Program-made: the position numbers and the translations under genes
Source: an uncultured Bacteroidales bacterium
GTDB taxonomy: Bacteria; Bacteroidota; Bacteroidia; Bacteroidales; P3
Assembly (NCBI GenBank): GCA_946401725.1
Contig: CAMIVE010000015.1
Location: 1-36,238 of the forward strand
Reading direction: 5' to 3'
DNA length: 36,238 nt
Notes under the pieces: generated by a model
Seen by the model: the letters and a program-made list of their open reading frames with translations, nothing else
Told to the model about the DNA's origin: nothing
The model's database searches: none
In this document: one piece after another, positions 16,787-33,968 of the stretch
How positions within the stretch are numbered: position 1 is the first letter of the stretch
How the letters are laid out: every line of letters begins with the position of its first letter

Positions 16787-16837
16787 GCAAGTCCGGTGGA
16801 CTTGCGAGCCGAAGCCCGAAAAATACCCATTTTTCGG
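16787..16837. repeat. Double-hairpin element, copy 1
   Basis: Hairpin A is GCAAGTCC / GGACTTGC (16787-16794 and 16798-16805) with loop GGT. Hairpin B is CCGAAAAAT / ATTTTTCGG (16816-16824 and 16829-16837) with loop ACCC. They are joined by a 10-nt linker containing GAGCCGA. A second copy at 33827-33878 preserves both folds with paired substitutions. Confidence 0.8.
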
Positions 16838-17400
16838 AAAAGCTGAAGGAGCAAAAGAAAAGGGCTTTAAAAAGAAAACGATGCTAAAATACTCTTTTAT
16901 CATTTCTTCTTTCCGAAGACTTCTCTCAACTTTTCTTTTGCCAGAGCCCAAAAGAAAAGTTGCAAAAGAAAATGGCTCGGTCTGTCGAAGGAATGCCGCT
17001 GACGAAATGGCTAAAATTCCCGCCTCCAGAGCTAAAACGTCAAACTCGCACGTCTGTCGTAACAAACAAACTGAATCGTCAATCCTACCATTTTACCGAA
17101 TCTACAACCGTCAGAAAGTGTCCTTGCTCAGACAGTGACGTTTCTTCACGCTCCTCCAACAGGAATTTCTTCACGCCATTTACGTCAAAGCTGCTTTATC
17201 CGTAAGGATGGACTTTTGAAGTACTATAAAGCTTTTCTTGGTTACAACCCAGCAGTTGACCAGACTGCGTAGCCTCCGGAACTTCTATAGAACGACGAGA
17301 CTGCATAAGAAGCACCTCTTCTCACGTGCATTGACGTAGGGTGAAGAAAGAGCCAGTGGCTCTTTCGATAGCGAAGCGGAGAACAAAAAGGAAATCACAA

Positions 17401-17537
17401 GCGGAGGGCTGTAAAGGACGCAGGGTGTTTGAGCAAGGATTATTTCTTACGGTGATAGATTCTGTAAAACGTTAAACTTACGGAGAAAGTAAAAAGAAGC
17501 GGACAGGCCTGCGAGTTCCTGCGCCACAGCCCTCCGC
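17401..17537. other. Long-range stem enclosing an apical region of about 93 nt
   Basis: GCGGAGGGCTGT (17401-17412) pairs fully with ACAGCCCTCCGC (17526-17537). Just inside, CGCAGG (17419-17424) pairs with CCTGCG (17518-17523). This makes 18 bp separated only by a 6/2-nt internal loop. The apical part contains CAGGCCTG and short A/T-rich repeats. No reading frame is evident; it may be a structured RNA or a relic of one. Confidence 0.5.
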
Positions 17538-17701
17538 GCCGATGATTTCCATCGCCCGGAGTCAGCGGACAAAGTCCTTACGTAGGGAAGCGCTTTTTCT
17601 TTGCCAGCGTTTCTTTTTTCGCTTAGGAAAAAAGAAATGATGAAAGCATCCCTTTGGCAAAAGAAAAGTTGAGCAAGAGGCTTTGGAAAAAGAAAAGTGA
17701 A

Positions 17702-17728
17702 GAAAAGGGTTTTAGAAAAACCCTTTTC
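17702..17728 (-). terminator. Terminator downstream of yicC
   Basis: Perfect 12-bp stem GAAAAGGGTTTT / AAAACCCTTTTC with loop AGA, 7 nt beyond the yicC stop codon on the minus strand. The following minus-strand bases are T-rich but interrupted. Confidence 0.65.
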
Positions 17729-17735
17729 AAACGCT

Positions 17736-18605
17736 TTACAGAATATTCCCTAACTGTTCTTTAATCTTCTCCAATTCATCCTTCATCACCACCACCAACC
17801 GCTGTATCTCCACATGATTGGCCTTTGAGCCGGTGGTGTTGATCTCTCTCCCCATCTCCTGCGCGATAAAATTCAACTTCTTGCCGCTTCCTTCCTCGTG
17901 TTCCATCACTTCGCGGAAGTAATCGATGTGTTTCGCCAGACGGACCTTCTCCTCGGTGATGTCCAACTTCTCCAGATAGTAGATTAATTCCTGCTCAAAG
18001 CGGTTCTCATCCACCTCTTTGATGGCGGCGTCGTTCAGGTAGCTGCGCATACGCTCTTTGGCGGTGGCGATCCGTTCGGCTTCGTAGGCGGGAATCTGAC
18101 TCAGGCAGTGGGCGATCTGTGCCAGATGTTTCTCGAAATCGGCCTTCAGGATCATACCCTCATGTCGTCGGGTCTCGTCGACTCCGTCGATGGCTTGCTC
18201 CACCGCTTCGGCAAGGGCTTTGCTGCCTGCTTCGTCCAAAGCGTCGTCCTCATGACTGCTCCATACATCGTTCTGCTGGAGGATGACGGCGAGCAGCGTA
18301 TGGGGATCTGCCGTCTCGCCGAGAGCAGCGGTCAACTGCTTCAGTTCGTTGTAGCGATTAGTCACCAACTCGCTGTTGAGTTGCAAGGCCTTCTCGTTGC
18401 CGCTCTCCTCGCTGATGATAAAGTCCACCTTTCCGCGCTCCAACCGGTTGAGCAGGCTTCGTATGGGCAGTTCTTGATCTTTCAGGCTGTTGGGCAGCTT
18501 GACATTGGCATCAAGGGCTTTGCTGTTCAGCGTCTTGATTTCTATGGTGTATTTCTTTCCGTTGAGGGTGCATTGCTTCTTCCCGAAGCCCGTCATCGAT
18601 TTCAT
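17736..18605 (-). CDS. yicC: YicC/YloC family endoribonuclease
   Basis: A 289-residue protein of the YicC family. It begins MKSMTGFGKKQ, the hallmark N-terminus, followed by LNSKALDANVKLP and LLNRLERGKVDF. The C-terminal part (HIDYFREVMEHEEGSGKKLNFIAQEMGREINTTGSK, in two segments) is the conserved DUF1732 region with acidic and histidine residues that bind metal in studied homologues. E. coli YicC is reported as an RNA endonuclease acting on the small RNA RyhB; the substrate here is unknown. It follows apbE by 35 nt on the same strand, possibly in one transcript, and a hairpin terminator follows. Confidence 0.93.
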   Translation of the reverse strand: MKSMTGFGKKQCTLNGKKYTIEIKTLNSKALDANVKLPNSLKDQELPIRSLLNRLERGKVDFIISEESGNEKALQLNSELVTNRYNELKQLTAALGETADPHTLLAVILQQNDVWSSHEDDALDEAGSKALAEAVEQAIDGVDETRRHEGMILKADFEKHLAQIAHCLSQIPAYEAERIATAKERMRSYLNDAAIKEVDENRFEQELIYYLEKLDITEEKVRLAKHIDYFREVMEHEEGSGKKLNFIAQEMGREINTTGSKANHVEIQRLVVVMKDELEKIKEQLGNIL

Positions 18606-18640
18606 ATCTTATAGTATTATATATTCTATAAATATAGGGT

Positions 18641-19708
18641 TTAAAAGTCTAAATATTTCTTGAACGCTTCCGTCATATACATCTTGTTCTCACTTGCCTC
18701 GTTGTAGATGAAACAGACCTGCTGGACACCGCTATCCTCGGGGTGTTTCTTAATGAATTCCAGTGACCGTTCCAGCCCCATCACCATAAAGGCGGTGGCT
18801 AATGCGTCAGCACGCCAGGCGCTGCTGTCGACCACTGTAACGCTCAGCAGGGTGTGTCTCACAGGTCGTCCTGTTTGGGGGTCGATCGTGTGGGAGTAGC
18901 GTGCGCCGTTCTCCTCGTAGTATTTGCGGTAGCTGCCCGAGGTGACTATGGCAGCGTCGCGCAAGGCGATGCCTGTCGCCACCTCTCGTTCGCTGTATTT
19001 GGTCTCCGACGGGCGTTCGATGCCGACACTCCAGCTGCTGCTGTCGGGCTTGCATCCCCGTGCGTAGACCTCTCCGCCGATATCGACGAGGAAGTTGGTG
19101 ATGCCTTGTTGCTCCAGATAGCGACTGACCATGTCGGTGGCATACCCTTGTGCGATGGCGTTGAAGTCGATGGCTGTCTCGGGATGGGGTTTGCGGATCA
19201 CCAGGCTGCCGTCGCTTTTTGTGACGAGTGTGGGCTGCTTGCCGGTAAAGGCCAACAGGCTGTCGATCATCCTGTCGTTAACCTCCTCGCGTTTCGAGAA
19301 GCCAAAGCCCCATGCATTGACCAGTTTGCCGACGGTGCAGTCGAAGCAGCCGTCGGTGTAGTGGTTCATCTCCGTCGAATAGCGCAGCAACTGGGCGAAC
19401 AGCTCGTTGACAACACTGTCGTTGTTGTCGTTGACGCGCCGTATCAGCGATTGCGATTCCCACAGCGATGCCGTCAGATCAAAAGCATGCAGTAACGAGT
19501 CGATGGAGGGCTGCAGATCGCGTCCGGCCGAGTCGTAGTAGATAATGGTGTAGTAGGTCCCTTGGGCTTTGCCCTGCAGCTCGACACGGACACCGGAACC
19601 ACTGCCGTTGCCCTGCCGGCACGCCGTCACCGTTAAGCATAGCGCTGCCGTCAGGCACAACAGGGTGCTTCTCCGAATCGTAAGGTATTTCTTTAGTCTC
19701 ACCTGCAT
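18641..19708 (-). CDS. apbE: FAD:protein FMN transferase (ApbE)
   Basis: ApbE covalently attaches FMN from FAD to a Thr/Ser of periplasmic or membrane proteins, such as subunits of the Na+-pumping NADH:quinone oxidoreductase and Rnf. The 355-residue protein is a lipoprotein: the signal sequence ends LTVTAC with Cys 30. Family motifs are DFNAIAQGYATDMVS (flavin binding), FLVDIGGEVYARG, HTIDPQTGRPV, and the metal-binding WRADALATAFMVMG. The ATG at 19708 was chosen over an in-frame ATG at 19747 because the latter leaves no signal peptide at the start and lies close to the previous terminator. No target flavoprotein gene is adjacent. Confidence 0.93.
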   Translation of the reverse strand: MQVRLKKYLTIRRSTLLCLTAALCLTVTACRQGNGSGSGVRVELQGKAQGTYYTIIYYDSAGRDLQPSIDSLLHAFDLTASLWESQSLIRRVNDNNDSVVNELFAQLLRYSTEMNHYTDGCFDCTVGKLVNAWGFGFSKREEVNDRMIDSLLAFTGKQPTLVTKSDGSLVIRKPHPETAIDFNAIAQGYATDMVSRYLEQQGITNFLVDIGGEVYARGCKPDSSSWSVGIERPSETKYSEREVATGIALRDAAIVTSGSYRKYYEENGARYSHTIDPQTGRPVRHTLLSVTVVDSSAWRADALATAFMVMGLERSLEFIKKHPEDSGVQQVCFIYNEASENKMYMTEAFKKYLDF

Positions 19709-19756
19709 GTTTGTTTCATTGGACCCGTAGCATCCAAAAATATCCAAAAGTTACTA

Positions 19757-19791
19757 TAAAAAAAGCGTCCGGCTCACCGAACGCTTTTTTT
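19757..19791 (-). terminator. Terminator of the 468-residue T9SS gene
   Basis: Stem GCGTCCGG / CCGAACGC (19765-19772 and 19777-19784) with one mismatch and loop CTCA, flanked by A- and T-runs. It lies 18 nt after the stop codon at 19809 and separates the gene from apbE. Confidence 0.88.
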
Positions 19792-19808
19792 AGGTATATC
19801 AGTATCGA

Positions 19809-21215
19809 TTATTTCGACAGAACCACAGTGCGGGTTGTGACGGTACCGTTGGCCAGCTCCACGCGAACGACATAGGTGCCGTTGATCAGGCTGCGCATGT
19901 CGATGCTGGTGCTGTTGTTGGCGCTCATGACCTGCTGTCCCATGATGTTGAACACGCTGATGTTCTTGACATCCTCGCTGCTCTTCACGTTGATGATGGC
20001 AGTGGTGGGGTTGGGATAGACAGAGAGGGTCTCAGTGTCCACGTCGCCGATGCCGACATTGGCAAGCACGGTGACGTAGGCGGTGGCCGAGCATCCCGTA
20101 GAGGCGTTGGTGCCGGTTACGTAAACGTCGATATTCTCGTTCACCGGATCAAGGGTGATGCTCGATTCGGTACTGTTGTTGAACCATTTGAAGTTAACCG
20201 TCTGGTTGCTGTTGGCGTAGAGGGTAGCGCTTGAACCAGGAGTGACACGCAGGTCGCCGCTGATGGTGACTTCAGGCGATTTGTAGATGGTTAGATTCAG
20301 GTAGTAGATACTGTCACATCCGTTGACGGCTTTGGGAGCGTAGAGGGTGTCAATGGTAGACGACGTGTAAGTGTAGGTGGCGGTGTCGCTGAGGGTGATG
20401 GAGTAAATGTCACACAGCTGCTCGGTGATGTTGATAACCTGTTTCGATTTGATGTTGAAATGGAAGTTGATGACGCTGTCATAGCATTTCTCCAGCGTAC
20501 GAGGATGGAAGATGTTGCGGATCTCGGTCGTGGAAGTGTCGAAACCGTCGAAAGCAGTGGTGAATTCGGTTCCGTCAACGGTGATGTCAATATAGGTCTT
20601 GTTGTTGTTGCTGGCGAAACGGAACGAGTTGTTGAATTTGAAACGGTATTTGTCGCATGAGGTGATGACAGAGTCTTTCTCTCTGGGAGCACCGGTCGAA
20701 ATAATGGTCAGATCCAGTGTCAGGACAGAGTCGCACTCGCTGTTCGTGGTATCGTTATAGGTGAAAGTGCCGGTGGTGTTGAAGGTCGTTCCTTTCCAAG
20801 CGTAGGAGGCACAGGCGCTCTTGGTATAGGTGCGATAGGCGGTGTCGGCAAGAACCAGATTGATGGTCACCGTGCTGTCACACTGGTAGACGCTTTTGAA
20901 CGTCTGCGTCTGGATACCATCCTGGTTAGAATGGTAGACGCTGTCACCCCAGGTATAGGAGCATCCGCCATGGACGATGCCAGGAACGATGACGTTGTAT
21001 GTCGGATGGATGGTCAAGTCAAGAATGTAAAGCGTGTCACCGGAGAAGTAGGTGTAGGCTCCTGTCGTAGTGTAAGTCTGACCCGTGACATTCCAGGTGT
21101 ACTGTACACAGGCATCGACGGTGGTGTCGATGTGTACCGAGGATTTCACTTGTGCATTCATTGCAAAAGGCATCAGCAATGCAGCCATCAAAAGAAAAAA
21201 TACTCTTTTTTTCAT
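19809..21215 (-). CDS. T9SS-secreted repeat protein
   Basis: A 468-residue secreted protein: signal peptide (MKKRVFFLLMAALLMPFAMNAQ) and a type A T9SS sorting domain from about 397 (LSVYPNPTTAIINVKS, VFNIMGQQVM, GTYVVRVEL, RTVVLSK). Between them is a series of degenerate repeats, each with a Cys followed by a YxW-like core, then a GDT/TGTFTY turn, and ending CDSxxxLxLTI, for example CVQYTWNVTGQTYTTTGAYT and CASYAWKGTTFNTTGTFTYN. At least four units are recognisable. Such modules recur in secreted Bacteroidota proteins, but a function is not assigned. Before the sorting domain, VTPGSSATLYANSNQTVNFKW resembles a PKD/Ig-like domain. Probably cell-surface located. Confidence 0.88.
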   Translation of the reverse strand: MKKRVFFLLMAALLMPFAMNAQVKSSVHIDTTVDACVQYTWNVTGQTYTTTGAYTYFSGDTLYILDLTIHPTYNVIVPGIVHGGCSYTWGDSVYHSNQDGIQTQTFKSVYQCDSTVTINLVLADTAYRTYTKSACASYAWKGTTFNTTGTFTYNDTTNSECDSVLTLDLTIISTGAPREKDSVITSCDKYRFKFNNSFRFASNNNKTYIDITVDGTEFTTAFDGFDTSTTEIRNIFHPRTLEKCYDSVINFHFNIKSKQVINITEQLCDIYSITLSDTATYTYTSSTIDTLYAPKAVNGCDSIYYLNLTIYKSPEVTISGDLRVTPGSSATLYANSNQTVNFKWFNNSTESSITLDPVNENIDVYVTGTNASTGCSATAYVTVLANVGIGDVDTETLSVYPNPTTAIINVKSSEDVKNISVFNIMGQQVMSANNSTSIDMRSLINGTYVVRVELANGTVTTRTVVLSK

Positions 21216-21326
21216 CTGTAGATAGAATTAATATTGTTATACTACTTTATTTATTATTTTCTTATATTGTTGTGTTAAAAACAGATACGTGATAATTGTG
21301 CCCGTTTAATGACACATTACCAACAT

Positions 21327-21335
21327 GCAAAGATA
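21327..21335 (-). promoter_or_regulatory. -7 box of the 468-residue T9SS gene
   Basis: On the minus strand TATCTTTGC matches TAnnTTTG, about 110 nt upstream of the start codon. The -33 region is T-rich but not a clean TTTG. Confidence 0.55.
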
Positions 21336-21366
21336 ATAAATTTTTTTATTGTGACCGAAAAAAGTT

Positions 21367-22791
21367 TTATTTTTCCTCTTTCAGTAGGAGCAACGCTACA
21401 TTCTCTACATGCTGGGTGTGGGGAAACATGTCGACTGGCTGGAGACTCGACACGGCATATTTCTCGCTCAGCAGTTCGAGGTCACGTGCCTGGGTGGCGG
21501 GATTGCAGCTGACATAGACGATTCTTTGGGGACTGACAGCAAGTAGCTGCTGTACGACCTTCTCGTGCATCCCCGCCCGGGGGGGATCGGTGATGACGAC
21601 GTCGGGTCGGCCGTTTTGGCTGACGAATGCTTCGGTGAAGACTTTGGCCATGTCGCCGGCATAGAAAGTGCAGTTCTGCAATCCGTTGTTCGCGGCATTC
21701 TCCCGGGCGTCGGCTATGGCGTCTTCTACATATTCGATGCCGACAACTTTCTTGCAGCTCTCGGCAACAAACTGGGCGATGGTGCCCGTTCCGGTATACA
21801 GGTCGTAGACGGTCTCGTCGCCTTGCAGGTCGGCAAATTCGGCGACGAAGCTATACAACCGGTAGGCTTGCTCGGAGTTGGTCTGGTAGAACGACTTCGG
21901 ATGGATGCGGAAACGCAGCGGGCTTCCGCCACCATAACGGGGCATCTCCTCGGTGATATAGGGCTGGCCGTGGTAGCAGTGCACCTCCAAGTCGTTGTAG
22001 GTGTCGTTGAATTTGCCATTGACGATGTATAGCAGTGAGGTGATCTCGGGGAAGGTCTCCTTCAGGTGCTCCATTAGTGGCATCAGCCATTCGGGACGCT
22101 CTTCGGCGACAATGACGATAACCATCCACTCGCCGGTCGTGGTGCAGCGTATCACGATATTGCGCAGGTAGCCGCTATGGTTACGGATGTCGTAGAGGGG
22201 CAACCCGTGACTGAAGGCATAGTCGCGCACCGCCAGACGGATGCGGTTCGAGGGGTCGCGCTGCAGGGCACAGTGCTCGATGGGGATGGCTTTGTCGAAG
22301 ACGGTGGGCGCATGGAATCCCACGGCGCCGGGATCGTCGTCGGGCAAGGTTTCGCCCTCGTTGCGCCAGCGTTTGTTGCTGCAGGTGAACTCCAGCTTGT
22401 TGCGGTAGTAGTAGATATTGTCCGACCCGCAGATGGGACGCATCCCGCTGGTGTCGACATGTCCGAGCCGCTCCAGATTGTCTTGCACCTGCTGTTGTTT
22501 GTACTGCAATTGCGACTCGTAGCGGAGGGTCTGCCATTTGCATCCGCCGCACAGTCCGAAATGGGGACAGACAGTCTCCACCCGCAGCGGCGACGGCTGC
22601 TTGAGCGCCAGTACACGCCCCTCGGCATAGTTCTTCTTCTTTTTGATGATTTTCAAGTCGATTACATCGCCGGGCACAACGAAGGGGACAAAGATAACCA
22701 TCCCTTCGTGCTTGACAATGGCCATCCCCTCTGCACCGGCATCGCTCACCGTAACATCATTCAGGATAATCTCCTGCTTCGTCTTGCTCAT
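21367..22791 (-). CDS. rlmD: 23S rRNA (uracil-5-)-methyltransferase, RlmD/RumA family
   Basis: A 474-residue enzyme that makes 5-methyluridine in 23S rRNA using SAM (TrmA/RumA family). From the preferred ATG at 22791: a TRAM-like beta domain at 1-60 (GEGMAIVKHEG-type), a [4Fe-4S] cysteine set C75, C81, C84 (CPHFGLCGGC) and C174 (IEHC), a SAM-binding region with YDLYTGTGTIAQF, DPPRAGMH, and the nucleophile C429 in YVSCNPATQARD with PHTQHVE following. The frame remains open 32 codons further upstream, but those codons fall in a 12-nt DNA repeat (KGEVKMEVKGEVK), so the upstream part is judged non-coding. Exact position specificity (U1939 or U747) is not readable. Confidence 0.9.
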   Translation of the reverse strand: MSKTKQEIILNDVTVSDAGAEGMAIVKHEGMVIFVPFVVPGDVIDLKIIKKKKNYAEGRVLALKQPSPLRVETVCPHFGLCGGCKWQTLRYESQLQYKQQQVQDNLERLGHVDTSGMRPICGSDNIYYYRNKLEFTCSNKRWRNEGETLPDDDPGAVGFHAPTVFDKAIPIEHCALQRDPSNRIRLAVRDYAFSHGLPLYDIRNHSGYLRNIVIRCTTTGEWMVIVIVAEERPEWLMPLMEHLKETFPEITSLLYIVNGKFNDTYNDLEVHCYHGQPYITEEMPRYGGGSPLRFRIHPKSFYQTNSEQAYRLYSFVAEFADLQGDETVYDLYTGTGTIAQFVAESCKKVVGIEYVEDAIADARENAANNGLQNCTFYAGDMAKVFTEAFVSQNGRPDVVITDPPRAGMHEKVVQQLLAVSPQRIVYVSCNPATQARDLELLSEKYAVSSLQPVDMFPHTQHVENVALLLLKEEK

Positions 22792-22806
22792 TTTCATTAT
22801 TTTACT

Positions 22807-22910
22807 TCCCCTTTTACTCCCAATTATAGTAACGTCCACTTTAACTTCCCCTTTAACTTCCATTTTTACTTCCCCTTTTACTCCCACTTAAAGAAACGTC
22901 CATTTTAAAC
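22807..22910. repeat. 12-nt tandem repeat, TCCATTTTAACT family (copy 2, largest)
   Basis: Units of 12 nt, most beginning TCC and ending ACT: TCCCCTTTTACT, TCCACTTTAACT, TCCCCTTTAACT, TCCATTTTTACT, TCCCCTTTTACT, TCCATTTTAAAC. Two 16-nt spacers interrupt them at 22819-22834 and 22883-22898, and these resemble each other (CCCA...A-rich...AACG). The whole array lies just upstream of the rlmD start codon and is open in its frame. Confidence 0.82.
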
Positions 22911-22941
22911 AAAAAAAGAAGTATTGACCTCAATACTTCTT
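22911..22941 (-). terminator. Terminator of rpmH
   Basis: 9-bp perfect stem GAAGTATTG / CAATACTTC (22918-22926 and 22931-22939), loop ACCT, followed on the minus strand by a run of seven U. A smaller hairpin, GCTATTC / GAATAGC (22960-22966 and 22972-22978), precedes it. Confidence 0.88.
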
Positions 22942-23010
22942 CCTCTCTTTAGCAATGAAGCTATTCTTCTTGAATAGCCCGCACGTTTCAGGATAATTGC
23001 AAAGCGTTTT

Positions 23011-23157
23011 TTAGCGCTCGTCGGAGACGGTGAGTTTCTTTCTTCCTTTTCTGCGGCGTGCAGCCAACACTTTTCTGCCATTTGCCGTCGACATTCTCTG
23101 ACGGAAACCGTGCTTATTTGCTCTTTTTCTGCGTGATGGTTGGAATGTTCTCTTCAT
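23011..23157 (-). CDS. rpmH: 50S ribosomal protein bL34
   Basis: A 48-residue gene that begins [20 protein letters not shown], continues [20 protein letters not shown] and ends KLTVSDER. This is the canonical L34, including the conserved HGFR and [14 protein letters not shown] pattern with a short Bacteroidota-type tail. It is a small basic protein of the large subunit. It appears to be transcribed alone: a good promoter lies just upstream and a terminator follows. The rnpA gene that accompanies it in many bacteria is not present here. Confidence 0.97.
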
Positions 23158-23177
23158 TTTTACTCAAATTTGGAAGT

Positions 23178-23208
23178 GCAAAAGTACACAAAAAAAACAA
23201 ACCGTCAA
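23178..23208 (-). promoter_or_regulatory. Promoter of rpmH
   Basis: On the minus strand TTG (23206-23208), a 19-nt spacer, then TACTTTTGC (23178-23186). The predicted leader is only about 15 nt. Confidence 0.75.
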
Positions 23209-23310
23209 CAAAAAATGTTTAAAACTTTCTTAATGGAAATATAAAATACTTAAAATAAACGAAATAAAAAATATTATCTGTGATTGTTTTTCCATGTCGA
23301 AAAAAGTCTG

Positions 23311-23318
23311 TACATTTG
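23311..23318 (+). promoter_or_regulatory. -7 box upstream of the TPR-like/secG genes
   Basis: TACATTTG followed by C, matching TAnnTTTG, 33 nt before the ATG at 23351. The -33 region is T-rich without a clear TTTG. Confidence 0.6.
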
Positions 23319-23350
23319 CATTTTGATTTTTTAGGCACGAAAATTACAAA

Positions 23351-24025
23351 ATGATGGATAAATCAGCATTTAATGTCAAGTTGTCAAACCTTTGTCGTTA
23401 CTCCATGATTGACAAGTCGGAAATCCAGCAGGAGAAAAACCGCTTCCCCTACTGCGCACTGCTGCAGATGATGGATATCCTAAGCGACAAGGCTACAGGC
23501 ACTTCGCAGTGGGAGGAACGCTTCCTGCCCCGTGTCGCGCTCTACCTCCCCGACAACTCGAGACTCAATTCCTACCTTTCTCAGGTCTCCCTCACGGAAA
23601 TCCAGACGCCGGCCGACTTGAAAGCCAAGCAGGAGGTGGAACAGGCGAAAAGCCAAGAATACAGCGCTACGGAACCGGAATCATTCGATATCATGAAGGA
23701 AATCAATGCTTATCAGGAGGTTTCTTTCAAAACAGCTCCCAAGAGCGTGATTCTGTCCAAATTTCTCGAAACGGGCAATTACAAACCAGAAGAATTGGGC
23801 GACGTAGATGCGGTTCCTATCGAAGTTTTAGGTAAAAAAAGCATCCAGGCAGACGATTCGTTAGATACTGAAACTCTTGCAATTGTGCTCGAAAAACAGG
23901 GCAAATTCGATATGGCGGTCGCCGTATATGAAAAATTAATTGTAAAATATCCCGAAAAAAGTAGTACTTTTGCACTCCGAATTTCGGAACTGAAAAGCAA
24001 AATCGAAAATAACAAAACTAAATAA
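23351..24025 (+). CDS. TPR-like protein upstream of secG
   Basis: A 224-residue protein with no signal peptide. The C-terminal part (LAIVLEKQGKFDMAVAVYEKL, then IVKYPEKSSTFALRISELK) looks like one or two TPR helices; the middle is charged and probably flexible. A protein of this type upstream of secG is a common arrangement in Bacteroidales, but its role is not established. secG begins 3 nt after its stop codon, so they are surely co-transcribed. The start could also be the second ATG (MM at 23351/23354). No catalytic motif was recognised. Confidence 0.8.
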   Translation: MMDKSAFNVKLSNLCRYSMIDKSEIQQEKNRFPYCALLQMMDILSDKATGTSQWEERFLPRVALYLPDNSRLNSYLSQVSLTEIQTPADLKAKQEVEQAKSQEYSATEPESFDIMKEINAYQEVSFKTAPKSVILSKFLETGNYKPEELGDVDAVPIEVLGKKSIQADDSLDTETLAIVLEKQGKFDMAVAVYEKLIVKYPEKSSTFALRISELKSKIENNKTK

Positions 24026-24028
24026 ACC

Positions 24029-24382
24029 ATGTACAATTTTATCGTAATTCTGATTCTGATTGTCAGCGTGCTTTTGGCTATTGTCGTGTTGGTGCAGAAC
24101 TCCAAGGGGGGTGGCTTGGCTGCCAACTTCTCTGCCCCCAACCAGATTATGGGTGTACGTAAAACTACTGATTTCCTCGAGAAAGCTACTTGGACCCTCG
24201 CCGCTGCTTTGGTTGTACTCAGCCTCATCGCTACGATTTCTATCCATTCGGGTAAGAAAACCGAAGCTCAGAAAAATGTCGTCAGTACCGACAAGGTGGA
24301 GCAGGTTCCTTCTGCAGCCAACGCTATGCAGGGCAATGCGGCTACTCCTAATGCCGCTTCCGATGCCGCTCCGCAGCAATAA
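24029..24382 (+). CDS. secG: Preprotein translocase subunit SecG
   Basis: SecG is the small accessory subunit of the SecYEG channel in the inner membrane and helps SecA-driven export. The 117-residue protein has two membrane segments at about 3-21 and 56-76, separated by the conserved loop VLVQNSKGGGLAANF, with ANQIMG-type residues following (APNQIMGVRKTTDFLEKATW). The C-terminal tail of about 35 residues is Ala/Asn/Gln-rich and probably unstructured. It follows the TPR-like gene closely and is followed by a strong terminator, so this is a two-gene operon. Confidence 0.93.
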   Translation: MYNFIVILILIVSVLLAIVVLVQNSKGGGLAANFSAPNQIMGVRKTTDFLEKATWTLAAALVVLSLIATISIHSGKKTEAQKNVVSTDKVEQVPSAANAMQGNAATPNAASDAAPQQ

Positions 24383-24406
24383 GCATTGTCTGAATCAAAA
24401 CAATAG

Positions 24407-24438
24407 AGAGATTTGCCGCAAGGCAAGTCTCTTTTTTT
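24407..24438 (+). terminator. Terminator of secG operon
   Basis: 11-bp stem AGAGATTTGCC / GGCAAGTCTCT with one G-U pair and a GCAA tetraloop (24407-24417 and 24422-24432), followed by a run of T. Confidence 0.93.
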
Positions 24439-24447
24439 GATTATATA

Positions 24448-26327: not shown

Positions 26328-26367
26328 GTTGATGAATTTGAGGGTTAAACAATCAATTTTTGACGAT

Positions 26368-26376
26368 GCAAATATA
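26368..26376 (-). promoter_or_regulatory. -7 box of the HU gene
   Basis: On the minus strand TATATTTGC, about 41 nt upstream of the HU start codon. The -33 region is A-rich with no clear TTG. Confidence 0.7.
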
Positions 26377-26441
26377 AGTAGTTTTTTTTTAATTACATAT
26401 ATTTTTTTGAAAAAAAAATAATAAAATTTTACACAAAAATT

Positions 26442-27389: not shown

Positions 27390-27391
27390 GG

Positions 27392-27889
27392 CTATTCCTC
27401 CAACTTCCGTTGCAGTGCCACCATCTTAAGAGCCGTGACAGCTCCTTCCACGCCTTTGTTGCCGTGTTTGCCGCCGGCACGGTCCAGCGCCTGCTGCATG
27501 TCGTTGGTGGTCAGCAGGCTGAAGATGACGGGACGCTCATGCTTCAGCGCCACATTGGTGATGCCCTGCGACACAGCCTCGCAGATAAAGTCGAAGTGGC
27601 GGGTCTCGCCTTGGATGACACAGCCGATGCAGATGACGGCGTCCAGACGGCTGTCGTTTTTCATCATCAGATCGGCACCGGTAGTGAGTTCGAAGCTGCC
27701 CGGCACATGGACGATGGGGATGTTCTCGGTGGCGACACCGTATTGCAGCAGGGTGTCGAGCGCACCCTGTGCCAGCGCGTTGGTGATTTCGCTGTTCCAT
27801 TCGGCTACAACAATACCTATGCGGAATGCTTCTCCCGAAGGCACCTCCGCCGCATTGTATTCAGATAAGTTCTTTTTCTTGGTGATCAT
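27392..27889 (-). CDS. ribH: 6,7-Dimethyl-8-ribityllumazine synthase
   Basis: RibH condenses 5-amino-6-ribitylaminouracil with 3,4-dihydroxybutanone 4-phosphate in riboflavin synthesis. The 165-residue protein carries IVVAEWNSEIT near 26-36, the PGSFELT phosphate/substrate loop at 63-69, and GCVIQGETRHFDFI at 89-102 with the catalytic His 98. The length matches. It is placed between the M23 peptidase gene (55 nt upstream) and fmt (2 nt downstream). No other rib genes are present in the window, and no FMN riboswitch-like element was recognised in front of it. Confidence 0.96.
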   Translation of the reverse strand: MITKKKNLSEYNAAEVPSGEAFRIGIVVAEWNSEITNALAQGALDTLLQYGVATENIPIVHVPGSFELTTGADLMMKNDSRLDAVICIGCVIQGETRHFDFICEAVSQGITNVALKHERPVIFSLLTTNDMQQALDRAGGKHGNKGVEGAVTALKMVALQRKLEE

Positions 27890-27944
27890 ATTATTTATTG
27901 TTTTTATTCTTGTTTATTATACGCACCATGTGGTAACGGTCTTC

Positions 27945-28850
27945 TCACCGCACCCGAACCTTCATGCCGGCTTTCACTTTCTTGAGGTCGGGGTTCAGCC
28001 GTTTCAGTTCCGCTACGGTGGTGCTGTGCTGCATGGCGATGAGCTCCAGCGTGTCGTCCTTGGTGGCGGTATGGTAAACCTCACGGGGTTGTTGGCGCGT
28101 GGGACGCTCTTTGATGATGCTCTTGTCGGCTTTGAAGACGGGGGGCTTGTTGCCTTTGGGGATGGTGATGCCGAAATAGGTCTTGTCGAGATGCAGCCGC
28201 CGCGTGCGCAGCGTGTAGTTCGAGAAATCCAGCAGCCATTCGGGGTCGAACGGTTCGTATTGGAATCGCACCTCGAAGTGCAGATGCGGCCCGGTGGAGT
28301 TGCCGGTACTGCCGCCCAGTCCGATGACGTCGCCGGCTTTGACTATCTGGCGGGGTTTGACAAGGATTTTCGACATGTGTCCGTAGACGGTCTCCAGTCC
28401 GTTCTCGTGACGGATCACCACCACGTTGCCGTATCCGCCCATGGTGCGGGCAATGCGTACCACGCCGGGGAAACAGGCATGTATGGGGTCGCCGGTGCGC
28501 AGCAGGATGTCTACGCCGCGGTGGGCCCGGTTGAACAAGGCACGCCAGCCGTAGGGCGACGTACGGATGTTCCTCATGGGGAAGCAGAACTCGCTGCTGT
28601 CTTTTATCAGGCGCAGGTTGACCTCGTCGGGCAAAGAGTCCATCGAGAGCTGCCGCAGCTTCACCGCCGCGCCGGAGAAATTGTCGTGGTAGAAAAGTCT
28701 CCACATGAGCACTTCTGAGCCGTCGCCCTGGTAGAATTGGGGCTCCTTCTTGCCGCCGCTATCCTTCTGCGCCTGCAAGGGCATCAGGAGGACCATCATC
28801 GCTGCCAGCGACAGCAACCTCGTCAAGTCTCTATGGAAATTGCTTCTCAT
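27945..28850 (-). CDS. M23 family metallopeptidase with LysM domain
   Basis: A 301-residue exported cell-wall enzyme. The signal peptide (RLLSLAAMMVLLMPLQAQ) covers the first 28 residues. The LytM/M23 core shows H110xxxD114 (HRGVD), GHM around 157-159 and HLHFE at 189-193, the zinc ligands being H110, D114 and H191. It hydrolyses peptidoglycan cross-bridges or regulates an amidase; activity is expected since all ligands are present. A C-terminal LysM-like region at about 258-301 (YHTATKDDTLELIA, then VKAGMKVRV) should bind peptidoglycan. It follows rpoN by 5 nt, probably one operon. Confidence 0.93.
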   Translation of the reverse strand: MRSNFHRDLTRLLSLAAMMVLLMPLQAQKDSGGKKEPQFYQGDGSEVLMWRLFYHDNFSGAAVKLRQLSMDSLPDEVNLRLIKDSSEFCFPMRNIRTSPYGWRALFNRAHRGVDILLRTGDPIHACFPGVVRIARTMGGYGNVVVIRHENGLETVYGHMSKILVKPRQIVKAGDVIGLGGSTGNSTGPHLHFEVRFQYEPFDPEWLLDFSNYTLRTRRLHLDKTYFGITIPKGNKPPVFKADKSIIKERPTRQQPREVYHTATKDDTLELIAMQHSTTVAELKRLNPDLKKVKAGMKVRVR

Positions 28851-28855
28851 TATGA

Positions 28856-30307
28856 TTAACCTACCTCTTTTCTCATTCGTCCTACGGGAATGCCCATACT
28901 TTCACGGTATTTGGTCACCGTGCGCCGCGACAGTTTGAACCCCTGTGCCTGTAGCTGCTGCGTCAAGGCCTCGTCGGTGAGGGGCTTACGCTTGTCCTCG
29001 CCGTCCACGATTTGCTGCAGGGCTTCTTTGATATGCTCTATGGCGAGCACTTCGCCCTCCTCGGTGACAACGGCTTTCGAGAAGAGCTCCTTGAGCAGGA
29101 AGGTGCCGAAATCGGTCTGCACATATTTCTCGTTCACCACCCGCGAGAGGGTCGACTCGTCGTATCCGCTCTCCTTGGCGATGTCTTTCAGCCGCATGGG
29201 TCGCAGGTCGGCGGTGTCGCCGCTCAGGAAATAGTCATACTGGTATTTCATGATGGCTGCCATGGTTCGCTGCAGGGTCTGCTCCCGTTGCTGCAAGGTG
29301 TCGATGAACCCCTGGGCGTCGTCGCTCTTGCTTTTGATGAACTGCAGCGTCTCGCGGTCGCCGCTGCTGAGTTTCTGCTGTGCCGAAAGCTGCTGCATCA
29401 TCTCTGTGTACTCGCTGTTCATGCGCAGCTTCGGACGGTTGCGGTCGTTGAGCGTGAAACTGAGCCGGTCTCCTTCGCGGACCACGATGAAGTCGGGGAT
29501 GACATAATGGGCGCCGCGGTGCTCCTCCCCACGTCCCCAGCCGGGTTTGGGATTCAGGCGTCGGATGACGCCGAGGATCTCCTTCAACGTTTTCTCGTCG
29601 ACTTTCAGCAGGGTCATCAGGGCGGCATAGTGCTTGTTGGACAGCTGGTCGAAGTACTTGTCGACCACCAGCGTGGCTTGCTCGGTCAGCGGGTCGGCCG
29701 ATTCCAGGCGGTGCAACTGCAGCGACAGGCACTCCTGCAGACTGGTGGCGCCGACGCCTGCGGGGTCGAATGACTGGATGACCTGCAGCATTTGCAGCAT
29801 CTCCTGCTCGGAGACCTCTATATTGTGGCGGAAGGCTAGGTCGTTGGCGATAATCTGGATGTCGCGGCCTAAGTAGCCCGAACCGTCAATGCTGCCGATA
29901 ATCTCCATGCCGATACGCTTCTCGCGGTCCGACAGGTTGCGCAGTTCCAGCTGGCGTATCAGCGACTCGGTGAACGACTCCGACTCGGAGACCTCGAACC
30001 GGCGTTCTTCGCGGTTGTAGTCGCGCTCCAGCCGTTCGCGGTAGCTGTAGTCGTCGTCATAGTAGTCGTCCATGTCGATGCCGTGGAAGTCCTCGTTATC
30101 GTCGGTCGTGTCGCTGTAGTCCTCCGTGGCGTCGTTCGGATAGTTCTCTTCTTCGGGTGCTTCTGCATCAAGCAGCGGGTTCTTCTCCACCTCCTCTTTG
30201 ATTTTCTGTTCCAGCTGTGTGACGGGGAGCTGCAGCAGTCGCATCAGAAGCAGCTGCTGAGGGGTCAGCTTCTGCTGCATCTTCATCTTCTGTCTTTGTG
30301 AGTTCAT
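28856..30307 (-). CDS. rpoN: RNA polymerase sigma-54 factor
   Basis: Sigma-54, which directs RNA polymerase to -24/-12 promoters and needs an AAA+ activator. The 483-residue protein has the glutamine-rich region I (QKLTPQQLLLMRLLQLPV), an acidic region II (EEENYPNDATEDYSDTTD), the core-binding domain, and a C-terminal RpoN box, SRRTVTKYRES at about 460-470. It is the first gene of a four-gene unit rpoN-M23-ribH-fmt. No sigma-54 activator is seen in the window. A short spacer before the gene has no clear promoter. The start MNSQRQKMKMQQKL could also be one of two later ATGs. Confidence 0.96.
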   Translation of the reverse strand: MNSQRQKMKMQQKLTPQQLLLMRLLQLPVTQLEQKIKEEVEKNPLLDAEAPEEENYPNDATEDYSDTTDDNEDFHGIDMDDYYDDDYSYRERLERDYNREERRFEVSESESFTESLIRQLELRNLSDREKRIGMEIIGSIDGSGYLGRDIQIIANDLAFRHNIEVSEQEMLQMLQVIQSFDPAGVGATSLQECLSLQLHRLESADPLTEQATLVVDKYFDQLSNKHYAALMTLLKVDEKTLKEILGVIRRLNPKPGWGRGEEHRGAHYVIPDFIVVREGDRLSFTLNDRNRPKLRMNSEYTEMMQQLSAQQKLSSGDRETLQFIKSKSDDAQGFIDTLQQREQTLQRTMAAIMKYQYDYFLSGDTADLRPMRLKDIAKESGYDESTLSRVVNEKYVQTDFGTFLLKELFSKAVVTEEGEVLAIEHIKEALQQIVDGEDKRKPLTDEALTQQLQAQGFKLSRRTVTKYRESMGIPVGRMRKEVG

Positions 30308-30426
30308 GGTAGTTTGTAGGTTTAGGTTTGTCCTAAGGGGACGAATAATAGTTACACGGATGCTTGTCTTTTTATATAAAGAGATAACAGAAAACCTTGG
30401 AAAAAAGTATCCCGACGCTGTTTTTT

Positions 30427-31437
30427 CTACTGTTTGGCACTCTCAAGCCGTTGATTCTCGTATGCTGTTTGATTCTTGTATTCCGGATAGTTGGTGTATC
30501 TCTTGCAGGTGGGGCCTGAAATAATGCATGGACCGTTAGTCGTCTCTTTGTCCATGCGGACGGGCATATAGTAGAATTGCAAAGGGCTGTTTTTGCTCAG
30601 TCGGGAATACATGGAAGAGGATTGGAAGTAAGAGGTGAGGTCGAATTGCGGTACTGTGGACACACACCGCACCAACCCGAACCCGGCTTGGTACAGTGCC
30701 GTAAGGGTCTCCTTGCTCAAGGGGTTCTTCACGGTGGGGAGTATTTTCTTCAACTGGATGTCGTCAATAGGGGAGATGTCGCCGTTCTTGCGTTGGAAAT
30801 AGTTGGTTACAATGCCGTTCCGGATGGTGTATTCGTCGATTTTCCCGGATACCAGGGCAAAAGGCGTCCCAGTCTCGGTATCCACAACGGTAGTGAAGTT
30901 GATACTGACACCTTCGTTGTTTTTGTATCCGGCAAGTACGCCGTTTTTAAATGTCAAAGACGTTGAGATCAGCTTGTTGTGAGATGAGCCTCCAACAGTG
31001 GCTTCTTTGTAGGAATAATAAAAGATCCATACGCCGTCGGGATTCCCCTCTTTGTAGGCACCTGACACGGAGTCGATCGTATTGGTTTTAGTCACCGTCT
31101 TGAGGCGGCCATAGCCCGATGTGTTTTTTTTGTCCGTTTTCTGGGAATACTTGTATTTGCCGTTTTCCTTTCCATGAACATAGTTCACTGATTCGTTGCA
31201 GCGGAACTTGAAGGTGTTGTTAGGGTCCTGGGTGTTGTTTACAGTCCCTTTGACGGTCATCGGGCCGTGCAGTATCTTGTTGTCGTCTTGGTCATAATAA
31301 AATGTCGTGGTCTTCTTGCAGTCGTTGTTGAAAACACTGACAGTCGTTGTTTCTGTCATTGTTTTGACATTCTGGGCCGTAACATGACCTAACCCGAAAA
31401 GCAAAACACTGATTCCGATAAAAATCCTGTGGTTCAT
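30427..31437 (-). CDS. Secreted protein of unknown function, paralogue of 987-2816
   Basis: A 336-residue protein with a signal peptide (MNHRIFIGISVLLFGLGHVTAQ) and no lipobox or sorting domain, so probably periplasmic. Family not recognised. The N-terminal half contains MORN-like beta segments: FYYDQDDNKILHGPMTVKG, SGAYKEGNPDGVWIFYYSYK, STSLTFKNGVLAGYKN. It resembles the first half of the 609-residue protein at 987-2816, sharing YYxDxDDNxxxHGxxTV and a later IxLKKILP...LSKETLTALYQAG segment. This version is much shorter. It is followed by rpoN on the same strand, 120 nt away. Confidence 0.8.
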   Translation of the reverse strand: MNHRIFIGISVLLFGLGHVTAQNVKTMTETTTVSVFNNDCKKTTTFYYDQDDNKILHGPMTVKGTVNNTQDPNNTFKFRCNESVNYVHGKENGKYKYSQKTDKKNTSGYGRLKTVTKTNTIDSVSGAYKEGNPDGVWIFYYSYKEATVGGSSHNKLISTSLTFKNGVLAGYKNNEGVSINFTTVVDTETGTPFALVSGKIDEYTIRNGIVTNYFQRKNGDISPIDDIQLKKILPTVKNPLSKETLTALYQAGFGLVRCVSTVPQFDLTSYFQSSSMYSRLSKNSPLQFYYMPVRMDKETTNGPCIISGPTCKRYTNYPEYKNQTAYENQRLESAKQ

Positions 31438-31491
31438 AATGATAGGTGTTTGAGCGAAACTTCTTGATGCTTAAACTTTTAAAACATCACT

Positions 31492-31526
31492 AAAAAGAGG
31501 GTGTCCCATGATTTAGAGACACCCTC
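31492..31526 (-). terminator. Terminator of the kbl-HdeD unit
   Basis: 9-bp perfect stem GAGGGTGTC / GACACCCTC (31497-31505 and 31518-31526), loop 12 nt, with T-rich minus-strand bases following. It lies 24 nt after the stop of the HdeD-like gene. Confidence 0.85.
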
Positions 31527-31549
31527 AAGGTGTTAAGTAGTGCAGTCCT

Positions 31550-32131
31550 TTACTGCTGGTTGTCGATAGGGGTGGCTTCGGCGCTCTCTTTGAGGTCGCG
31601 CAGACGGCTGTCGATGCGCTTCAGAGCAAAGAACGCCACCAGACGGATGATGCCGTTGGCAAGGATGCCCAGTCCGAGCAGGACGCCGAACAGCGCGCTG
31701 GTGACATCGGGCTTGCGCATAGCCAGGAATCCCAGCACGATGCTGCAGACTCCCAGCAGGAGCATGGTCCACCAGTAGGGGAATCCGGCTTTCTTGTAGT
31801 CGAAAGCCAGCACAGAGAGCGACAGGCCTTCAAACATCACCCACACCGAGAACAGCACAATCAGCGTCTCGGCAGCCAGCAACGCATTGCCCAGGAACAT
31901 CACGCCGATGAAAAGCTGGAAGATGCCCAGGAATATGGTGGTGCTGGTATTGGGCAGCACATTGCGTGCCTTCATGCTGAAAAGCAGCGAGGTGGCTCCG
32001 GCAACCAGGATCAGCAGTCCCACCAGCCAGGCCATCGTCTCAAAGCATTCCTTGGGGTTGACAAGGCAGACAGCACCCAGGACGACGAGCAGCAGGGCGG
32101 TGAGAATCAGAAAAAAGCGCGACTGTTTCAT
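31550..32131 (-). CDS. HdeD/DUF308 family membrane protein
   Basis: A 193-residue inner-membrane protein with about six hydrophobic segments, for example FFLILTALLLVVLGAVCLV, TMAWLVGLLILVAGATSLLF, IFLGIFQLFIGVMFLGNALL and WWTMLLLGVCSIVLGFLAM. This layout and the repeated V-G-L-L/G-I patterns fit the HdeD/DUF308 family, originally linked to acid resistance in E. coli; a role here is not established. The ATG at 32131 was chosen because it overlaps the kbl stop as ATGA, implying translational coupling. A terminator follows. Confidence 0.85.
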   Translation of the reverse strand: MKQSRFFLILTALLLVVLGAVCLVNPKECFETMAWLVGLLILVAGATSLLFSMKARNVLPNTSTTIFLGIFQLFIGVMFLGNALLAAETLIVLFSVWVMFEGLSLSVLAFDYKKAGFPYWWTMLLLGVCSIVLGFLAMRKPDVTSALFGVLLGLGILANGIIRLVAFFALKRIDSRLRDLKESAEATPIDNQQ

Positions 32132-33309
32132 CCCTCGATCTCCTTGCGTACTTTCTTGAAGGCTTCGATGCATTTGTCGAGGTGCTCATGCTCGTGGGCG
32201 GCGCTGATCTGGACGCGGATACGGGCCTGGCCTTTCGGTACGACAGGATAGTAGAAGCCGGTGACGAAGATGCCTTCTTCCTGCATCTTGGCGGCATACT
32301 GCTGGCTCTTGGCAGCGTCGTAAATCATCACGGCGCAGATAGCGCTCTCGCTGGGCTTGCAGTCGAAGCCCTCTTCCTTCATGCGGCGCAGGAAGTAGTC
32401 GGTGTTCTCATGCAGCTTGTCCTGCAGTTCGTTGGTCTCGCTCATCATCTCGAACATGCGGATGCCGGCAGCTACGAGGCCGGGAGCCATCGAGTTGCTG
32501 AACAGGTAGGGACGGCTGCGCTGACGCAGCATGTCGATGATTTCTTTCTTGCCCGTGGTGAAACCGCCCATGGCGCCGCCGAAGGCCTTGCCCAGCGTGC
32601 CGGTGAGGATCTCAATCTTGCCGCGCAGGTTGTAACGCTCGGTGACACCGCGTCCGGTCTTGCCGACCACGCCTGCCGAGTGGCTCTCGTCGACCATCAC
32701 CATGGCGTCGTATTTGTTGGCGAGTTCATAGATCTTGTCCAGCGGGCAGACGTTGCCGTCCATCGAGAAGACACCGTCAGTGACGATGATGCGGAAACGG
32801 TTCTTCTGGGCGGCTTTGAGCTGCTCTTCCAAGTCGGCCATGTCGGCGTTGGCATAGCGGTAGCGCTGGGCCTTGCACAGACGCACGCCGTCGATGATGG
32901 AGGCGTGGTTCAGGGCGTCGCTGATGATGGCGTCTTCTTCGGTCAGCAGGGGTTCGAAAACACCGCCGTTGGCGTCGAAGCAGGCAGCGTAGAGGATGGT
33001 GTCTTCGGTGCCGAAGAACTCGGCGATTTTCTGTTCCAGCTTTTTGTGGAGGTCCTGGCAGCCGCAGATGAAGCGGACACTGGCCATACCGTAGCCGCGG
33101 GCGTCCATGCCCTCTTTGGCGGCCTTGATAAGTTCGGGATTGTCAGCCAATCCGAGGTAGTTATTGGCGCAGAAGTTGAGGCATTTCTTGCCCTTCACCA
33201 GGATTTCAGCGCCCTGGGGGCTCTCAATGATGCGTTCGTGTTTGTACAGACCGGCGGCTTCGATGTCTGCCAGTTCTTTCTGAAGATGCTGTTGGAATTT
33301 AGTGTACAT
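32128..33309 (-). CDS. kbl: Glycine C-acetyltransferase (2-amino-3-ketobutyrate CoA ligase)
   Basis: A PLP-dependent alpha-oxoamine synthase of 393 residues that cleaves 2-amino-3-ketobutyrate with CoA to glycine and acetyl-CoA, completing threonine breakdown. FCANNYLGLADNPEL at 46-60, DESHSAGVVGKTGRG at 207-221, and TGTLGKAFGGAMGG at 236-249 with the PLP lysine K241 identify the family. Close relatives (AONS, ALAS, serine palmitoyltransferase) share these motifs, but the full-length similarity and N-terminus favour Kbl. No threonine dehydrogenase gene (tdh) is nearby. Promoter at 33355-33386; HdeD-like gene overlaps its end. Confidence 0.9.
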   Translation of the reverse strand: MYTKFQQHLQKELADIEAAGLYKHERIIESPQGAEILVKGKKCLNFCANNYLGLADNPELIKAAKEGMDARGYGMASVRFICGCQDLHKKLEQKIAEFFGTEDTILYAACFDANGGVFEPLLTEEDAIISDALNHASIIDGVRLCKAQRYRYANADMADLEEQLKAAQKNRFRIIVTDGVFSMDGNVCPLDKIYELANKYDAMVMVDESHSAGVVGKTGRGVTERYNLRGKIEILTGTLGKAFGGAMGGFTTGKKEIIDMLRQRSRPYLFSNSMAPGLVAAGIRMFEMMSETNELQDKLHENTDYFLRRMKEEGFDCKPSESAICAVMIYDAAKSQQYAAKMQEEGIFVTGFYYPVVPKGQARIRVQISAAHEHEHLDKCIEAFKKVRKEIEG

Positions 33310-33354
33310 AATTACAATATTTTATTAATTTTTAATATTTTGCAAAACAACCCA

Positions 33355-33386
33355 CAAAAATACAAAAAAAACAGGAATGTGCCAAA
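33355..33386 (-). promoter_or_regulatory. Promoter of kbl
   Basis: On the minus strand TTTG (33383-33386), 20-nt spacer, TATTTTTG (33355-33362). About 45 nt upstream of the kbl ATG. Confidence 0.7.
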
Positions 33387-33498
33387 TTTATTTGTCTTCC
33401 GGTACGCGGGCAGACTTGTCTGCACCAGAAAAACAGGCACTCTTTTTAGGTCAGAGGCCAGAATCACCTCCGTATTGTCCTGTGCGCAGCACATAACT

Positions 33499-33522
33499 TC
33501 CATTTTTACATCCATCATAGAC
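33499..33522. repeat. 12-nt repeat, TCCATTTTAACT family (copy 3)
   Basis: TCCATTTTTACA followed by the diverged TCCATCATAGAC. A short relic of the family seen at 12061 and 22807. It lies upstream of kbl, distal to its promoter. Confidence 0.5.
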
Positions 33523-33741
33523 TAATTTTCCCATTGTTTTACTTTGTTATTTAATCGTTACTAAATTGTTAAATTCTGAAAAAACGACGACTGATTCAGA
33601 AAAATATATAACATTGATTTTATGGAAGAAAATACAAAAAAATAAAAAACTGTTGAAAAAAAATGTTAAAAATTTGGCCCAAATGTAACCTTTTGGCAAA
33701 AAAAAGTCTCTTTATATATATAGAAAGTCATATATATCATA

Positions 33742-33968
33742 AGAAACTGTTTAAATTTGATTGATGGATTTTGTTATGGACATAAACGAGCAGATTTTAC
33801 CTGTTTTCGAGGGCGCAATGGTGTGAACAAGTCCTGTGGACTTGTGAGCCGAGCCCCGAAAAGTTCCCACTTTTCGGGAAAGGCGAAGGTAATGTAACTG
33901 AGAAAAGAGGGGAAATATGCCGTTTAGGTTCTTTAAGAAAACCATTGAATTAAGTTTAAACAGTTTCT
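33742..33968. mobile_element. MITE-like element with about 26-nt imperfect terminal inverted repeats
   Basis: Left end AGAAACTGTTTAAATTTGATT... (33742-33767) and right end, read on the other strand, AGAAACTGTTTAAACTTAAT... (33943-33968). Fourteen bases match perfectly at the tip, with scattered mismatches after. The 227-bp unit has no transposase. Its interior carries the double-hairpin at 33827-33878. No clear target-site duplication is visible; the flanks are both A/T-rich. The parent transposon is not in the window. Confidence 0.6.
33827..33878. repeat. Double-hairpin element, copy 2
   Basis: Hairpin A is ACAAGTCC / GGACTTGT (33827-33834 and 33838-33845), loop TGT. Hairpin B is CCCGAAAAGT / ACTTTTCGGG (33855-33864 and 33869-33878), loop TCCC. 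Compared with copy 1 (16787-16837), the outer pair of A changes G-C to A-T and an inner pair of B changes A-T to G-C, both keeping pairing. Confidence 0.8.

Follow-up and report, generated by a model that had tools for sequence, protein, structure and literature searches.

What kind of element is formed by two short stretches of adjacent hairpins in the genome of an uncultured Bacteroidales bacterium, and what keeps their fold intact? The stretch of DNA analyzed here, referred to as the window, comprises 36,238 nucleotides (positions 1–36,238 of contig CAMIVE010000015.1, GenBank assembly GCA_946401725.1). A sequence-only reading had described the two copies, taken the base changes between them as compensatory, and proposed a portable module with a fold that is under selection or needed for spread, possibly a REP-like unit, a small RNA, or a processing or termination element. 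We followed the element through related genomes with two covariance models, R1 built from copies 1 and 2 and R2 built from 34 full-length copies.

The double-hairpin unit and its fold

Both copies lie on the plus strand of the window. Copy 1 (16786–16849) consists of hairpin A at 16787–16805, a GAG linker at 16806–16808, and hairpin B at 16809–16849, and copy 2 (33826–33889) has hairpin A at 33827–33845, GAG at 33846–33848, and hairpin B at 33849–33889; with R2 they score 86.0 and 85.7 bits, respectively. The spans originally proposed, 16787–16837 and 33827–33878, are present and take in both hairpins, although the outer part of hairpin B (e.g. CCGCCGC/GCGGCGG) had been missed, and the aligned unit is 64 nt long with 53 of 64 positions identical between the copies. 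Each is preceded by a similar tetranucleotide on the same strand, TATG at 16782–16785 for copy 1 and TGTG at 33822–33825 for copy 2, the usual form being YRTG. On the plus strand, folding is well separated from that of shuffled sequences (z of −4.33 and −4.34 for copies 1 and 2, with none of 200 shuffles as good for either); on the minus strand the z values are −2.99 for copy 1 (2 of 200 shuffles as good) and −4.98 for copy 2 (0 of 200).

The two hosts differ. Copy 1 sits in a region of about 1.05 kb (16677–17720, strand not assigned) that is bounded by inverted arms at 16677–16749 and 17648–17720 with 77% complementarity and contains CTTTTCTTTTG/CAAAAGAAAAG palindromes. Copy 2 sits in a MITE-like unit (33742–33968, strand not assigned) with 67-nt inverted arms at 33742–33808 and 33902–33968 that are 70% complementary. 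A strong terminator-like hairpin is located immediately upstream of the copy 1 host region, at 16646–16679. Elsewhere in the window, tandem 12-nt motifs resembling TTTAACTTCCCC occur at 12056–12110 and 22800–22908.

All three pairing differences reported between the copies are found: the outer pair of hairpin A changes from G-C to A-T, one pair of hairpin B changes from A-T to G-C, and copy 2 has one additional C-G pair. A claim of covariation was not justified from these two sequences alone, since 141 of 500 shuffles score as high. The larger family provides the evidence that the pair could not. A first set of 45 rows yielded 38 full-length copies once seven partial or broken ones were discarded; four of these were excluded from the 34-copy alignment and from R2 (L041, a repeat of L022, and the degenerate L026, L033, and L044) and were restored in an alignment of all 78 matches. 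A second set contributed 35 rows, of which six were discarded, and four of the 67 copies remaining overall were removed before flanks and lengths were counted. The unit measures 62–66 nt in 63 of these 67 copies, the four excluded being three 55-nt partial copies and one cut at a contig end.

The anatomy is constant. An initial unpaired A (A1) precedes hairpin A, which has 8 bp and an NGT triloop; the GAG linker follows, and hairpin B is made up of an outer stem, a bulge of about 4–5 nt on the 3′ side, and an inner stem of about 9 bp closed by an NCCC loop or one that is a base longer. In the 34-copy alignment the usual ends are A(R)CAAG.. and ..CGAAGG or ..CGAGG, 93.9% of cells are paired, and 18 of 22 pairs have double-sided changes; the 124 double-sided cells compare with 28 expected by shuffling, a value that none of 500 shuffles attains. 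When the partners are slid by 1–3 columns, only 14–28 double-sided cells remain. This second control is informative in that shuffling ignores relatedness among copies whereas sliding preserves it, and the slid alignments score far lower. The same pattern recurs when 33 held-out matches, a few of them incomplete, are aligned (92.6% paired, 14 of 22 pairs, 114 double-sided cells against 30, 0 of 500 shuffles), and again across the full set of 78 (94.0% paired, 18 of 22 pairs, 276 cells against 62.8 expected, 0 of 500); both of these alignments are model-fitted and biased toward structure. In many copies the outer stems are wholly different in sequence and still paired. Unpaired columns are conserved like paired ones (means of 1.30 and 1.14 bits in the 34 copies), the conserved unpaired positions being A1, GT of the triloop, GAG, and CC of loop B.

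The family appears to be confined to one genus, as far as it was sampled. The genome that contains the window is a 1.61-Mb assembly, 59.7% complete; R1 finds four matches in it and R2 five, and the further copies have compensatory changes that keep the stems, in line with the original proposal. R1 at an E value of 0.01 gives matches in 27 of 148 genomes of a set of relatives (own genome included), all in one genus out of 60. Within that genus, R2 finds 63 matches of at least 40 bits across 29 of 120 genomes, and at an E value of 0.001 it matches 37 of the 120. Copy numbers are low, at 1–7 matches per genome, with the exception of one genome (G172) that has 17 matches of any strength. The expectation that many intergenic copies would be found elsewhere in the Bacteroidales held only in part: copies with intact stems are indeed there, some of them are not intergenic, and a sample of the order (295 genomes from 184 genera; R2, E value of 1e-4) yields matches in the window's own genome alone. 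A pattern search of genome contigs returned 107 stretches, of which ten are family members and the other 97, mostly from Actinobacteria, were taken as chance. There was no match in plasmids to the stretch with copy 1, in phages to the stretch with copy 2, or in viral contigs to the one pattern searched, and the open-licence PubMed Central papers searched contain no description of the double-hairpin element that we could find.

Insertion sites and copies within genes

The structure of the insertion sites bears on whether the unit is portable. Removal of similar flanks leaves 30 contexts, treated here as 30 non-redundant hosts. On the left, the base at −1 is G in 27 of 30, that at −2 is T in 23, and that at −3 is A or G in 29; TG occupies −2/−1 in 21 of 30 and the full YRTG is present in 18. 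The right flank has no strong preference. Comparison with empty relatives was possible for four kinds of host. Among the loci read, the MITE host of copy 2 has 17 empty relatives and two filled ones (the window and G043), the former reading AATGG, 8 nt, and TGTAAC or a close variant, and the latter AATGG-TGTG-element-3 nt-TGTAAC. Fragments of the 5S rRNA 3′ end at five loci (L019, L021, L022, L041, L162) read CTG(C)AT or CTGTAT, the element, and CATGTGTGG, at the place where intact genes read in the same genomes have CTGCACTTGTTTGTGG, with the loop CTTGTT. Intact nifJ copies read CTCATCATCTGC where partial copies bear the element, and empty mntP sites read like TAFREKMSWHRG. The presence of the unit in unrelated hosts, together with these empty counterpart sites, is what is expected of a small non-autonomous mobile repeat and bears out the idea of a portable module.

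At all four kinds of site some junction-adjacent bases differ from those of the empty relatives, and the ends of the element are therefore uncertain by a few nucleotides. These differences may reflect either a small replacement at insertion or later change. No target-site duplication was recognized at the MITE, mntP, nifJ, or 5S sites relative to empty relatives, and in the 34-copy alignment terminal inverted repeats are absent, the two hairpins being unlike each other and the ends lacking mutual complementarity. The element thus has neither of these two hallmarks of a MITE. The 5S, MITE, and mntP sites had suggested insertion into hairpin loops, a candidate that we rejected: complementarity of the flanks is no better than in shuffled pairings of the 30 hosts (p = 0.70; 200 of 1000 in an RNA duplex version), and the empty sites, eight sequences drawn from four types of host, are not unusually palindromic, with fractions of 0.08 to 0.55 of random positions as good. 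In the 5S rRNA fragments that carry the element, a terminator-like hairpin comes after. Other inserts are found near the center of the MITE family that hosts copy 2 (L357, L364, L377, L362).

The clearest case of a copy within a working gene is mntP, which is matched in 106 of the 120 genus genomes, with one match each in G025 and G151. At the insertion site, 20 loci are empty and two (those of G025 and G151) have a 22-residue in-frame insert, as counted in the 22 of 30 fetched loci that the search string matched. The open frame of the insert-bearing MntP runs through 214 codons (Pfam Mntp, E value of 2.5e-39). Outside the insert the two genes, which belong to two species, differ with a dS of 0.56, a dN of 0.034, and a dN/dS of 0.06, while inside it dN/dS is about 1.1 (six nonsynonymous and two synonymous changes, too few for precision) and the frame is kept. 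Given the retained frame and this contrast in dN/dS, the insert is most likely translated, near-neutral in sequence, and tolerated; the kept frame also speaks against splicing or ribosome bypass. In each of the mntP copies no more than 17 of the 22 pairs remain, compared with a median of 95% over 68 matches, and these copies may belong to a subfamily that differed from the model from the outset. For the proposal that the fold is under selection or needed for spread, the two halves fare differently: a role in spread is supported, and selection in place is doubtful in view of mntP copies with few pairs left while the frame was retained.

The case for coding copies outside mntP, namely in Rhs and partial nifJ genes, is weak. 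Eight copies lie in Rhs core regions at nearly one common place, seven antisense and one sense (L163), and seven of the eight are 66 nt as aligned; the NCBIfam Rhs core was found in all four of the Rhs-copy loci tested. As judged by eye, five of the eight have Rhs-like residues on both sides in a single frame (L015, L171, L182, L183, and L163, the last with only ten codons upstream), one has downstream similarity only (L040), one continues in a shifted Rhs frame (L020), and one is closed (L026). All seven nifJ bearers (L016, L017, L018, L012, L014, L156, L170) are partial copies, three of which retain an open frame over 220–352 residues. A functional nifJ that bears the element was considered and rejected, as open frames of 1,184–1,186 residues are found elsewhere on the same contig (G012, G165, G031). 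Partial copies of nifJ, which encodes pyruvate:ferredoxin oxidoreductase, hold several different short inserts, and some are near intact nifJ.

A different arrangement is seen in four genomes (G172, G043, G045, G177), in which one small gene, lipoprotein-like by eye, ends at the element (L172 2121–2389, L009, L010, L191), with the element supplying the A of the TGA stop codon. G172 has hairpin B units arrayed in tandem after this gene.

Probable mode of spread and alternatives

These observations establish an element that is real, conserved in fold, and mobile in the past. We consider it probable that this is a mobile palindromic element, non-autonomous and restricted to one genus, that measures about 64–66 nt, contains no gene, is moved in trans by way of a recognized fold, and is mostly passive once landed. 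The unit has no gene, conserves its fold and its unpaired bases, prefers particular bases at one junction only, and shows no target duplication; together these features point to a trans-acting protein that recognizes it as a folded single strand. Such a protein would most likely recognize the unpaired bases along with the fold and join the left end of the element next to YRTG, with the fold being selected during spread. A landed copy would be mostly passive, tolerated between genes or nested in other repeats, and a working gene would accept one only if whole codons were added without a stop. On this account the element would be selfish rather than useful, although its placement at the stop codon in four genomes and a terminator-like site at copy 1 (see below) could reflect a useful role at those places. 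A search for a mobilizing enzyme found none. Several copies were inherited by descent or multiplied within larger repeats, and for this reason, and because copy number is low, present movement is conjectural.

In one alternative, an IS200/REP-type (Y1, HUH) transposase cuts and pastes the unit in trans as single-stranded DNA, as for a REP/PATE-type element. This would explain two hairpins with one stem bulged, a junction preference confined to the left, and the lack of target duplication. Y1 matches are present in 73 of the 120 genus genomes, many of them amid arrays of other hairpin repeats, and in Bacteroidetes the TnpA genes of subclass 2.6 have atypical structures on their flanks, of which further copies lie at other genomic places, according to the available part of that study (PMC6006769). 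These transposases nonetheless show no link to this particular element. At 50 Y1 places read of 147 listed there is no full-length copy, the sole partial hit (L304) being family II (see below), a negative weakened by fragmented assemblies; four contigs have both a copy and a Y1 gene (tables compared by eye), each time more than 30 kb apart, in assemblies that are fragmented and often broken at repeats. Nor does the presence of Y1 track that of the element, with 18 of 29 genomes that have copies of at least 40 bits containing Y1 compared with 55 of 91 others. No strand preference was seen in a weak test: the G-rich strand has the element in 24 of 41 regions, where the skew is weak and the copies are not all independent. 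Y1 insertion should preserve the bases adjacent to the junction, and at the MITE, nifJ, and 5S sites these differ from the empty relatives. Finally, in the 34-copy alignment GTAG, GTGG, and CGTC tags are absent beside the hairpin feet. We judge mobilization by a Y1 enzyme unlikely on balance.

Two further explanations concern the fold. Any DNA hairpin is open to templated repair, by which quasi-palindromes could acquire paired changes with no selection on the fold, and the two mntP copies with 17 of 22 pairs would fit such a process. Against it, the unpaired linker and loop positions are conserved as well and covariation reaches the outer stem of hairpin B, past the internal bulge; repair could contribute part of the covariation and is quite unlikely to explain it all. 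A functional RNA or terminator module with its fold selected in place would be in keeping with the strong covariation, the conserved loops, and the recurrence, in four genomes, of a copy at one small gene's stop codon; moreover, in a simple scan, hairpin A of copy 1 is terminator-like on the minus strand, where the stem is followed by TCATATTTTT (three sites in the stretch scanned against 0.7 expected). We regard this explanation as very unlikely, since copy 2 has no terminator-like site, copies occur in both orientations in Rhs regions as well as in a MITE and in 5S and nifJ fragments, 83 of the 120 genomes of the genus lack a match at an E value of 0.001, and no Rfam family is found in the window at gathering score. 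A search of ten loci against Rfam at an E value of 0.01 returned only 5S rRNA (two matches) and a riboswitch below threshold (one match). The earlier suggestion of a small RNA or terminator has little evidence in its favor.

Relation to known palindromic repeats

The palindromic elements of Rickettsia (RPE) have equivalents in Wolbachia. Palindromic elements that lie in frame are known above all from Rickettsia, with further cases among REPs and small enterobacterial repeats in the parts of the literature available (PMC2229807, PMC3733652). RPE, as described in the available excerpts, are short, palindromic, dispersed, lineage-restricted, and found in frame in unrelated proteins and in RNA genes (PMC10969869, PMC2229807), and the element resembles them in its in-frame position in MntP in two genomes and, less cleanly, in Rhs core regions. 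It differs in length (about 64–66 nt, 62–66 as counted, versus 105–150 bp in the RPE text seen) and lacks the CGTC given for one end in the available portion of PMC3733652. The two hairpins, the conserved GAG linker, and the Bacteroidales host set it further apart, by description rather than by sequence comparison. The best reading is that the element works like an RPE in a coding gene, without their length or end tag.

The proposed likeness to REPs holds for architecture only: the end tags are absent, and no linked REP transposase was seen at the 50 Y1 places read, in fragmented assemblies. In the available excerpts, GTAG- and CGTC-tagged REPs, the latter occurring also in Bacteroidetes, are likewise small palindromes, some of which lie within coding genes and some of which supply a stop codon, and measure 20–40 bp (PMC3733652); the element is a double hairpin of about 64 nt with neither GTAG nor CGTC at its ends, and a link to a RAYT was not found. 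In place of GTAG/GTGG or a close variant 0–2 nt 5′ of a hairpin, most copies have YRTGA before hairpin A and YGAG before hairpin B. PINSR of Prevotella intermedia is another lineage-restricted Bacteroidales repeat that lacks terminal inverted repeats; unlike the element it is 188 bp long and intergenic, with no double hairpin described in the part of the report available (PMC4755523). What is new, on the best reading, is a genus-restricted double-hairpin element, the general kind, small palindromic mobile elements, being known. Mobile double-hairpin elements occur in fungal mitochondria; these are likewise two-hairpin and mobile, their hosts are fungal organelles, and the likeness is one of description alone. 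A genus of gut Bacteroidales with such an element offers an independent setting for how gene-free hairpin DNA spreads and how proteins absorb inserts, and the MntP pair, with one insert in two species, a long divergence, and a kept frame, makes the question of uptake testable.

The genus contains other hairpin repeats. Y1 (IS200-like) transposase genes lie amid arrays of hairpin units, often a triloop plus a tetraloop hairpin, at L211, L214, L220, L228, L304, and other loci. Several of these arrays are like the element in having both hairpins in each unit, and they are unlike it in sequence, in their units of about 70 nt (L211, L214), and in their placement around the Y1 gene; they are possibly a REP-like system of the genus. 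A second repeat, family II, is the more abundant of the two and has the left TG and a CC-NGT-GG hairpin in common with the double-hairpin element, followed by its own tail CGATAGCGAAGCGGAGAA. Tentatively, the two families might represent a class of single-strand hairpin elements with a mobilizing machinery of its own, in which two or more families combine one head (the left TG plus the triloop hairpin CC-NGT-GG) with tails of their own, a few target bases are replaced at insertion and none duplicated, and coding copies add whole-codon peptides, as in MntP. The family II pattern, allowing up to two mismatches, is present in 47 of 120 genus genomes, with 67 matches in G005, and the reversed control pattern has none in every genome listed. 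The insert at L362, in the MITE family that hosts copy 2, is family II, and one member lies in the window at 17344–17384 on the plus strand, 0.5 kb from copy 1, where the left TG is accompanied by a CC-NGT-GG triloop hairpin that resembles hairpin A and by the differing tail CGATAGCGAAGCGGAGAAC.
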